Source: Verrucomicrobiaceae bacterium
Lineage (GTDB): Bacteria; Verrucomicrobiota; Verrucomicrobiia; Verrucomicrobiales; Verrucomicrobiaceae
Assembly (NCBI GenBank): GCA_027487315.1
Contig: JAIYDW010000107.1
Location: 1-64,000, forward strand
Direction: 5' to 3'
Length of the DNA: 64,000 nucleotides
Part shown: one piece after another, positions 30,486 to 33,169 of the stretch
Numbering within the stretch: the first letter of the stretch is position 1
How the letters are laid out: each line of letters opens with the position of its first letter
Made by a program: the position numbers and the translations under genes
Notes under the pieces: model-generated
The model's input: the letters and a program-made list of their open reading frames with translations, nothing else
Databases searched by the model: none
What the model was told of the DNA's origin: nothing

Positions 30486-31787
30486 ATGCCGAAGATCATC
30501 GAAATGCCCAAACTAAGTGACACCATGACCGAGGGAACCCTCGCCAAATGGATTGTCAAAGAAGGTGACACCGTCACCACCGGCAAGCCTATCGCCGATG
30601 TCGAAACCGATAAGGCCACCATGGAAATGACCTCCTTCTTTGAGGGCACTCTCCACAAGCTCCTCGTCAAAGTCGGAGAAAAAATTCCCCTCGGTGCTGC
30701 CATGGCTGTCGTCCTCGAAGACGGCGAAGAAGCCCCCGCCAACCTCGACGAACTCATCGCCAAGGCCAATGCCGCCGCCGCACCTGCCGCCGAAACCAAA
30801 ACAGGCGATACCAAGGCCGATACCCCTCAGCGCGCCACTTCTAGTCTCCTCCCCAAAGCTCCTTCTGCCAGCCGCCGCCCCGCCGCCCGTTCCTCCAGCA
30901 ACGTCCGCGTCAAAGCGTCTCCTCTCGCACGCAAAGTCGCCGACGAACTCGGCGTCGATCTCTCTCGTGTCGATGGCACCGGACCTGGCGGACGCATCGT
31001 TCGCGCCGACGTCGAATCCGCTCCCAAAGGCGGCAGCGGGGCAGGGGGCAAGTCCGCTCCCGCCACCCCCACCATTCGTCCTGTCGTCGGTCCAGAAGAC
31101 GAACGCGTGCCGACCTCGACCATGCGCAACATCATCGCCGAGCGCCTGCTCGCTTCGAAAACGCAGATCCCGCACTTCTATCTGCAGATCGACATCGATG
31201 CCGAACCTCTCATGGACTTCCGCAGCCAACTCAATGCCACAGCGGAGAAAAACGGCGGCAACAAATACACCTTCAACGACTTCATCCTCAAGGCCGTCAT
31301 CCGCGCCGCCGGAACAGTTCCCGCCATCAATGCGGCTTGGGATGGTGACGCCATCGTCAAATACAAATCCGTTGGCCTCAGTGTCGCCATCGCGGTCGAA
31401 GACGGCCTCGTCACTCCCGTCATCAAACAAGCCGAGAAAAAGACCCTTCTGGAAATCAGCGAGGCCGTCAAAGACATGGCCTCCCGCGCCAAAAATAAGA
31501 GACTTACTCCAGACGAATTCGCTGGCGGCACCATCACCGTTTCTAATCTTGGTGCTTACGGAATTGACCAGTTCTCTGCGATCATCAATCCGCCCCAAGC
31601 CGCCATCCTCTCCATCGGCTCCATCCGCAATACCCCCGTCGTCGATAGCAAAGGCGCCATCGTCGCAGGCAAACGCATGTGGCTCGGCCTCAGCGGAGAC
31701 CATCGTGTCGTTGACGGCGCTGTCGCTGCCACCTTCCTCGCGGAAATGAAAAAGCTCCTCGAGAATCCGGCCCTGATGCTTCTCTAG
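30486..31787 (+). CDS. pdhC: Dihydrolipoamide acetyltransferase, E2 of pyruvate dehydrogenase
   Basis: E2 core enzyme of 433 aa. Domain order: one lipoyl domain (residues about 2-77) with the lipoylated lysine in VETDKATMEMTS, a Pro/Ala-rich linker, a peripheral-subunit-binding domain (ASPLARKVADELGVDLSRV, near 145-180), and the catalytic chloramphenicol-acetyltransferase-like domain ending in the active-site HRVVDGAVAATFL. A single lipoyl domain is the shorter form found in many bacteria. The gene ends 2 bp before a 190-bp fold-back element that separates it from a convergent SDR gene. Confidence 0.94.
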   Translation: MPKIIEMPKLSDTMTEGTLAKWIVKEGDTVTTGKPIADVETDKATMEMTSFFEGTLHKLLVKVGEKIPLGAAMAVVLEDGEEAPANLDELIAKANAAAAPAAETKTGDTKADTPQRATSSLLPKAPSASRRPAARSSSNVRVKASPLARKVADELGVDLSRVDGTGPGGRIVRADVESAPKGGSGAGGKSAPATPTIRPVVGPEDERVPTSTMRNIIAERLLASKTQIPHFYLQIDIDAEPLMDFRSQLNATAEKNGGNKYTFNDFILKAVIRAAGTVPAINAAWDGDAIVKYKSVGLSVAIAVEDGLVTPVIKQAEKKTLLEISEAVKDMASRAKNKRLTPDEFAGGTITVSNLGAYGIDQFSAIINPPQAAILSIGSIRNTPVVDSKGAIVAGKRMWLGLSGDHRVVDGAVAATFLAEMKKLLENPALMLL

Positions 31788-31789
31788 CC

Positions 31790-31979
31790 AGCTTTAGCCT
31801 GGATGATTCATGAACTTCGTTGCGAAAACGCTGGAAAGCCCGCGGCTGCCAGGCGGGCGCAGTTTTGAAATGCTGAGTGCATTGGTCCATGCTCGATGCC
31901 TTTCAAAACAAGCCCAACGCCGCAGACATGGGCTTTCCAGCGTTTGCAGTAGAAGGCTCATGAATCATTCAGGTTAGCT
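31790..31979. repeat. 190-bp imperfect fold-back element between convergent genes
   Basis: The two halves of this stretch are reverse complements over most of their length. Exactly matching blocks include ATGATTCATGA (31804-31814 against TCATGAATCAT at 31958-31968), AACGCTGGAAAGCCC (31827-31841, against GGGCTTTCCAGCGTT at 31930-31944) and GTTTTGAAA (31862-31870 against TTTCAAAAC at 31900-31908). The apex is at about 31885. The outer end overlaps the stop codon of the SDR gene (31974), and the left end starts 2 bp after the pdhC stop. It may be a MITE-like insertion or a two-way terminator. No second copy was seen in this window. Confidence 0.8.
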
Positions 31980-32645
31980 CCATCGCCCCACCCGGCTATC
32001 AAGTTGAAAAACTTGACCGCTCACATGCTGCATCGTGTCCAGCATCACGATGAATCGTGCCGCATCTTCCACCGTGTTAAACCGCCCCAACGCATGCCTC
32101 GACTCCAATTCCGCCCGGCGCTCCGCATCCCTCAATAGAGCCGCCGTCATTCTCGTCTCAAGCAATCCCGGCAGCACGCAGTTGGACCTCACGTTCCGTG
32201 CCCCATATTCCAGCGCTATCGACTTCGTCAGCCCTATCATCCCGGCCTTCGCCGCCGCATAATTGGCCTGCCCAAACGTCCCCTGAATCGCTGCAAAAGA
32301 GCCCAACTGAATCAGGTGTCCCCCACGCTGTCGACTCATCAACTTCAGCGCCTCGCGCGCACAACGAAAAGCCCCTGTTAGGCTAACATCCACTACCCCC
32401 TCAAACTGCTCAACCGTCATCTTCACCACCGACCCATCATCAATAACCCCCGCCTGATTCACCACCAAGTCCACCCGCTCAAGACTCGCAAAAAAAGCCT
32501 TCACCGCATCACTATCTCTCACATCCATTACATCCCGACCCGGCGCATGCACCACCCAGCTTTCCGCCAACAAACCCCGAGCCACCGCCTGCGCTAGCGT
32601 CCCTTCGCCCCCCGTGATAACGGCCACCTTGCTCATCTTCTTCAT
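31974..32645 (-). CDS. SDR-family oxidoreductase, FabG-like
   Basis: Short-chain dehydrogenase of 223 aa. It has the nucleotide-binding motif TGGEGTLAQAVARGL, VVNQAG, catalytic serine in GSFAAIQG and the YAAAKAG Tyr-Lys motif; the C-terminal region ends soon after the last strand, as in small SDRs. ATG 32645 overlaps the stop of the upstream PLD gene (ATGA) and is preferred over the ATG three codons later. It is downstream of an FKBP-type isomerase and the phospholipase D-like gene, so a three-gene operon is likely. The substrate cannot be inferred; a 3-oxoacyl reductase role is one option. Confidence 0.85.
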   Translation of the reverse strand: MKKMSKVAVITGGEGTLAQAVARGLLAESWVVHAPGRDVMDVRDSDAVKAFFASLERVDLVVNQAGVIDDGSVVKMTVEQFEGVVDVSLTGAFRCAREALKLMSRQRGGHLIQLGSFAAIQGTFGQANYAAAKAGMIGLTKSIALEYGARNVRSNCVLPGLLETRMTAALLRDAERRAELESRHALGRFNTVEDAARFIVMLDTMQHVSGQVFQLDSRVGRWS

Positions 32646-33169
32646 GCGATGGGATCCGGACAAACCTCCCGCCGCTGACACTTCACACAGTGGTCACCCA
32701 AGTAAAACGCATCCAGAAAAGTCATCAATTCCCTAATCGTCTCGCGATCCTCCGTCACCACCCCCGCTTCAAAGTTCCGCCGATGCGGACTCTTCGCCCC
32801 CATCCCCGCACCGGTTAGATTGGCCGAACCCACATACGCTTTCCTCCCATCCGCAATCACACACTTCATGTGCATGCGCGGACAAAGGATCCGCTCAAAT
32901 CCCTCCGCCTCCACCAACTCAGGAAACCGGTCAAAATCCTCCCGAAATCTCGGCCCCGGCTCCTTCGCATGCACCAACCGAATCTCCACCCCCTCCCGCA
33001 ACTTGTCCGCCAGCACCTTCAAAAACGGCACAAAATCATTTCCATCCTCAATGTAAAGATCCTTGATGTCCGCCGTCACAATCCACAGCAACCGACGCGC
33101 TTCCATCACCAGCTCTTTGAGCACCAACTGGTAAGTCGCTTCGTTCAGAACAAGACGCGTCTGGGACAT
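32642..33169 (-). CDS. Phospholipase D-like (single HKD motif) protein
   Basis: Protein of 175 aa with a single HKD-like motif: HMKCVIADGRKAYVGSANLTGAGM (near residue 119) has the canonical H-x-K-x4-D plus GSANLT. Single-HKD proteins usually dimerise to form the active site, as in the Nuc endonuclease and some phosphatidyltransferases. It has no signal peptide. A C-terminal tail CVKCQRREVCPDPIA carries several cysteines. It is flanked by an FKBP isomerase and an SDR in a short operon. Nucleic acid or phospholipid as substrate is not determinable. Confidence 0.8.
   Translation of the reverse strand: MSQTRLVLNEATYQLVLKELVMEARRLLWIVTADIKDLYIEDGNDFVPFLKVLADKLREGVEIRLVHAKEPGPRFREDFDRFPELVEAEGFERILCPRMHMKCVIADGRKAYVGSANLTGAGMGAKSPHRRNFEAGVVTEDRETIRELMTFLDAFYLGDHCVKCQRREVCPDPIA

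Follow-up and report, generated by a model that had tools for sequence, protein, structure and literature searches.

A dispersed, palindromic mobile element lies between the convergent pdhC and SDR genes in the stretch of DNA analysed here (the window; 64,000 nucleotides of contig JAIYDW010000107.1 from a Verrucomicrobiaceae bacterium). That the element moves by insertion is well supported. On balance we favour its being a non-autonomous miniature element of about 175 bp, palindromic throughout, which would be mobilised in trans by IS1380 transposases and would carry a conserved structured RNA. The hairpin itself is probably a mobile structured RNA that was previously uncatalogued.

The element at the pdhC–SDR junction

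The pdhC gene encodes 433 amino acids on the + strand with its stop at 31787, while the SDR gene occupies the - strand with its stop codon at 31974–31976, and a Pfam search confirmed both the acyltransferase (pdhC) and the SDR identities. The sequence-only reading had described the convergent gap as an imperfect inverted repeat with an apex at about 31885 and a right end at the SDR stop, and all of this is borne out. Read directly, the sequence contains a 176-bp palindrome, CCTGGATGATTCATGA...TCATGAATCATTCAGG, at 31798–31973 with its centre at about 31885.5; it is flanked on both sides by TTAG (31794–31797 and 31974–31977, both within the span 31790–31979), and the SDR stop codon falls inside the right-hand copy. 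The palindrome at 31798–31973 was absent from the output of a gapless inverted-repeat finder because mismatches and bulges interrupt its arms. Folded as RNA, 31790–31979 reaches -104.4 kcal/mol against a mean of -60 for 200 dinucleotide shuffles (z -9.9), none of which was as low.

The element is placed on the + strand, which is that of the consensus core motif, and covariance model R1 gives it 123.6 bits on this strand against 62.6 on the other. It begins and ends with 16-bp terminal inverted repeats at 31798–31813 (+, of IS1380 type) and 31958–31973 (-). Inside these, an outer internal-loop motif has its left half at 31818–31825 (+; CGTTGCGA here, CGTNGCGAG in the consensus) and its right half, GCAGTAGA, at 31946–31953 (+), both taken from alignments A1 and A2, and an apical hairpin with the consensus GGCGTACT...AGTACGTCGAG occupies 31875–31897 (+; alignment A1 and structure). 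No open reading frame of 80 or more amino acids overlaps 31798–31973, and no IS1380 transposase is encoded in the element.

Dispersed copies and insertion

The window's own genome (G000) has DNA matches to the element at many places, at identities from 93% downward. Full copies were delimited at 14 places there and at 29 in two sister genomes from its genus (G001 and G003). These 43 exclude 12 loci whose copies are partial and an additional weak core in L014; a covariance model found no copies in a further genus member, G002. Across the 38 genomes searched, comprising the window's own and its relatives, five relatives or sister genomes gave a DNA match. Instead of a single copy with an unconserved hairpin, the search for copies that the earlier reading had proposed returned a dispersed family with a conserved core.

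For the insertion test, 17 elements present in just one of the genomes had their flanks joined, and the joined sequences were searched for in the sister genomes; 12 of the 17 gave a match across the junction. Seven of these 12 are clean empty sites (L003, L027, L040, L055, L056, L066, L069). The window's own copy occupies the same place in both G001 and G003, where it is 97–98% identical, and among the 11 relatives compared at the pdhC–SDR junction one from another genus (G019) has the junction without the element, its pdhC and SDR matches lying 24 bp apart. Orthologous copies are 96–99% identical in 10 of 11 pairs, near or slightly above the identity of their flanks. The MITE-like insertion that the sequence-only reading had listed among its possibilities is accordingly supported by the dispersal of the copies, by sites found empty, by flanks that agree over 4 bp and by ends of IS1380 type.

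Several loci show further rearrangement. L026 and L032 are orthologous sites with flanks 91–94% identical and elements only 82% identical, as in a replaced or converted copy. L079 (G003:C213:1445-1660) consists of just two fused element ends, as though the palindrome had been deleted, at a site where G001 carries an element (L056) and G000 has none (L078). Tandem arrangements occur as two elements in a row at L060 (G001:C55) and three at G048:C176:26450-27121. A second repeat of 165–169 bp, 88–92% identical, adjoins the right flank of the element at three unrelated places in G001 (L029, L041, L063), and a small palindrome of about 33 bp beside L004 (positions 258–305 of the query), resembling a REP family, is found at dozens of places in G000, G001 and G003.

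Target sites and gene context

The flanks of the elements read YTAR. Identical flanking 4-mers bound all seven copies (CTAG five times, TTAA twice) in G309, a closed, single-contig genome of 2.3 Mb from the same class as the window's organism, and 15 of the 43 copies in the window's genus, where the rest are altered or mosaic. The check for target-site duplications was therefore positive, the window's copy included, with TTAG/TTAG in L001 and its orthologue L021; L022 has TCAG/TTAG. A 2-bp duplication of TA, with which unequal flanks such as CTAG/CTAA are also compatible, was favoured at first and was set back for a 4-bp YTAR duplication because of the seven identical pairs in G309. Many of the 43 genus copies have mosaic flanks, most commonly CTAG paired with CTAA, which a simple 4-bp duplication does not explain.

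By our own codon-usage predictions of gene stops and neighbours, 11 of the 43 genus copies, and 10 of 40 in G048, G041 and G309, lie directly against a predicted gene stop. When an element inserts precisely at a stop codon, as in the SDR gene, the gene probably takes no harm, since the TAA or TAG within YTAR is duplicated and the stop is thereby restored.

A long hairpin at the 3' end of an mRNA can stabilise the message or terminate transcription, and in the window the element fills a convergent junction. The earlier reading had also proposed a terminator working at the RNA level on both strands. We nonetheless consider it very improbable that the element serves convergent genes as a bidirectional terminator or an mRNA 3' stabiliser. 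No terminator-like site (a G+C-rich hairpin followed by a T run) was found in 31600–32200, and the pdhC–SDR junction of G019 exists without the element. Convergent junctions are not favoured, holding only 7 of the 43 and 9 of the 40 copies, with 9 of the 55 gene pairs in the window being convergent. The copies are also not consistently oriented relative to neighbouring genes, with 10 top against 21 bottom relative to facing gene ends in the window's genus and 15 against 16 in G048, G041 and G309 together. The bidirectional terminator was rejected on these grounds.

Relationship to IS1380

The link between the element and IS1380 is good but indirect. The 16-bp end CCTGNATTATTCATGA, with at most one mismatch outside its variable bases, stands at both ends of three IS1380-family transposons of 1.65–1.74 kb (L209, L210, L212) from Nitrospira, Bacteroidetes and Acidobacteria MAGs, and the same 16-bp sequence is found at the left end only of an IS1380 copy in a deltaproteobacterial MAG. 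When ends were compared genome by genome, those of the element had an IS1380 match in G043, G052, G047 and G309, a match at the left end only in G042 and none that was recognised in G045.

The elements of G309 end in CGGCCATTTCTCACAA, unlike those of the window, and the 1.71-kb IS1380 copies of that genome end in C[CG][CG]CCATTTCTCACCA or sequences close to it, with a single base separating one of these ends from that of the element; the G309 transposon ends therefore match the G309 elements and not the window's element. At two of the four IS1380 loci examined in G309 an element lies directly beside the transposon with CTAG in common. Further end variants surround the same interior elsewhere in the phylum, for instance CCCGCATTTCTCACCA in G164 and CCCGGACATCTCACAC in G109. 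Since the IS1380 copies examined carry element-type ends and have no match to the interior of the element, the core hairpin being absent from them, the core is probably unneeded for transposition. Taken together, the ends suggest that IS1380 transposases would move the element in trans.

An autonomous parent in the window's own genome was looked for and discarded: no IS1380 transposase scored above the family cut-off in G000–G003, and G001 gave one weak match. In the phylum sample an IS1380 match occurs in 7 of 22 element-bearing genomes and in 58 of 365 others, a weak co-occurrence (p 0.07). MAGs often lose multi-copy transposons, so neither the absent transposase nor the weak co-occurrence is decisive. 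An origin from IS630/Tc1-mariner elements, suggested by the TA in the flanks, was set aside because the DDE_3 domain (PF13358) had a match in none of the five genomes searched and IS1380 ends fit better.

Distribution across phyla

A cross-genome pattern scan in which both ends had to lie at the correct distance, with the interior left unspecified, gave 103 stretches, of which 80 were retrieved as loci. Sixty-seven of the 80, mostly 173–177 bp long, score at least 80 bits under a covariance model trained on 31 copies, a result that is not an independent test as 28 of the 31 training copies come from the scanned loci. The other 13 (L094, L099, L102, L104, L112, L115, L118, L142, L144, L145, L155, L159, L170) score 66 bits or less; they have IS1380-type ends and a similar length with no core, and look like other miniature elements.

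By the titles of their records, the 67 core-bearing loci fall under about 11 phylum labels, any one of which may be wrong as the loci are from MAGs: Verrucomicrobia and Lentisphaerae, Planctomycetota, Proteobacteria, a Deltaproteobacterium, Binatota, Bacteroidetes, Nitrospira, Krumholzibacteriia, Eisenbacteria, Hydrogenedentota and Acidobacteria. In the phylum sample the element is present in 22 of 387 genomes and 20 of 198 genera. Among the matches listed for one gammaproteobacterial MAG (G048) are at least 70 distinct places of full length; only distinct listed places are used, because the covariance-model match counts may register a single copy on both strands. Plasmids and phages were rejected as carriers for want of matches: blastn gave none in plasmids for the window copy or L130 and none in phages for L098, and the exact pattern had no match in viral contigs. 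A blastn search of E. coli with L126 was likewise negative.

A conserved core with strand-biased change

The core is a hairpin with two asymmetric internal-loop motifs, at which the arms do not match and which are conserved across phyla: an outer motif, CGTNGCGAG opposite CTCGCAGTAGA, and the apical motif described above. The inner hairpin keeps its pairing, both motifs and its length across distant bacteria, while the ends vary. The alignments A1 and A2 comprise 31 and 22 copies selected from among those available. Double compensatory changes are present at 44 of 59 consensus pairs, and the covariation score is 0.563, against 0.194 when shuffled and 0.09–0.12 with partners slid.

Pairs broken by a transition were counted as G.U or A.C, each copy being oriented by the core motif, which was first seen in these same copies. 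Outside the window's subfamily, G.U exceeds A.C by 289 to 88 in 49 copies, 47 of which individually have more G.U and two more A.C. The 49 are what remains of the 80 loci after leaving out 15 without a clear motif (the 13 core-less loci together with L110 and L131, although the covariance model scored these two as core-bearing) and 16 that belong to the window's subfamily (Verrucomicrobiaceae and Lac Pavin Verrucomicrobia MAGs); they still include the Verrucomicrobia loci L153 and L164 and the Lentisphaerae. Within the window's genus the ratio is 54:28 in G000 and 104:71 in G001 and G003. When each change is counted once within subfamilies it is 80:42, and the bias is weaker for changes that a single copy alone shows (47:29, p 0.05). 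Further copies, taken from G048, G041 and G309, gave 32:15, bringing the distinct events to 112:57 (p 3e-5). Strand-wise mutation bias is no explanation, because both of the changes that make G.U are in excess in paired columns (C>T 48 against G>A 26; A>G 32 against T>C 16) and unpaired columns show the opposite trend (C>T 8 against G>A 32).

These counts bear directly on whether the element is just an ordinary IS1380-derived MITE, with its palindrome and compensatory changes arising solely from correction of one arm by the other at the DNA level during replication or repair and with no function as RNA. Such correction in a palindrome would yield double changes without selection, 13 of the 80 loci share the ends and have no core, and many MITEs are known that combine the ends of a transposon with a strong predicted hairpin (PMC10969869; PMC4133298). 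This account is doubtful, although it deserves some weight, because correction should be strand-symmetric and G.U outnumbers A.C on one strand in every group totalled, which disfavours arm-to-arm correction alone. It also sits poorly with the conservation across phyla of asymmetric loop motifs, at positions where one arm differs from the other, and with retention of the core where the ends differ.

These patterns point to selection on one strand in a folded, single-stranded state, with RNA the likeliest form. The G.U bias is most simply read as a mark of RNA, and single-stranded DNA would give the same signature: G.T is a tolerated mismatch in DNA hairpins too, and the core strand might fold, for example at a replication fork, to be recognised by a transposase or some other nuclease, in the manner of IS200/IS605 or integron attC. 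Strand specificity fits such a scheme too. We regard it as unlikely, however, because the core is probably unneeded for transposition and because the insertions leave short repeats like those of DDE transposases, which to our knowledge single-strand transposition systems do not.

Of the structured ncRNA suggested in the sequence-only reading, the conserved core, the covariation and the strand-specific bias can be upheld, and its status as an ncRNA is a prediction from these patterns. In the mechanism that we favour, IS1380 transposases would mobilise the element in trans and insert it at YTAR with a short repeat, and the hairpin would most likely fold in those transcripts that read the core strand. 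As for the function of the core, we infer that the two loop motifs may bind a putative, widespread cellular protein, and that this binding would either let the host tolerate insertions or regulate the spread of the element. More tentatively, though quite possibly, the family may form a class of mobile structured RNA: a conserved hairpin of about 175 nt, ancient or widely transferred, that would spread through unrelated phyla on IS1380-type ends recognised in each host and whose two loop motifs would be read by the putative protein partner.

Comparison with known systems

Rfam 15 gave no match at E<=1 in 31000–33000 of the window and none at E<=0.1 in seven element-bearing loci, and a literature search through MITE reviews and other families, with subscription journals thinly covered, returned no description of this element. 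The interior of a bacterial MITE is usually given little weight, the element being regarded as a decayed transposon. In this family it is the interior that is conserved under many phylum labels and the ends that change with the local transposase, suggesting that the persisting unit is a folded RNA. If this is true, a mobile RNA family not in Rfam 15 is gained, together with a comparative data set that is ready to use, rich in copies from the one gammaproteobacterial MAG, and the question whether RNA structure can sustain a selfish element becomes open to test.

Integron attC sites have RYYYAAC/GTTRRRY core sites and rely on an integrase, whereas the ends of the element read YTAR-CCTG. With IS1380 insertion sequences the element shares 16-bp terminal repeats, which read CCTGNATTATTCATGA or C[CG][CG]CCATTTCTCACC, and insertion at YTAR; a table in PMC4133298 gives two IS1380 elements direct repeats of 4 and 5 bp. 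Unlike them the element is only about 175 bp long, has no transposase and is fully palindromic, and the IS1380 ends examined come without the core hairpin. QMITE2 of Coxiella burnetii, as described in excerpt, resembles it in size (150–190 bp), in its strong hairpin, in a frequent position at gene 3' ends and in a GTAG motif, and is set apart by direct repeats of 7–11 nt and variable sequence, against YTAR here (PMC5896051). REP elements with RAYT transposases (the GTAG and CGTC families) share conserved palindromes, a GTAG tag, G.T pairs and a wide spread, and differ in length, being hairpins of 20–40 bp in the extract consulted (PMC3733652). ERIC, Correia/NEMIS and similar MITEs are likewise short, mostly intergenic, dispersed and non-coding with a strong hairpin, but those described in PMC10969869 are tied to particular taxa, whereas the present core occurs under about 11 phylum labels and its ends vary. 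With a length of about 175 bp, 16-bp inverted ends, no coding capacity, dispersed polymorphic copies, a target duplication and the ends of an autonomous transposon, the element is filed as MITE-type with IS1380 ends, and its conserved, strand-specific core and varying ends exceed the definition of a MITE.
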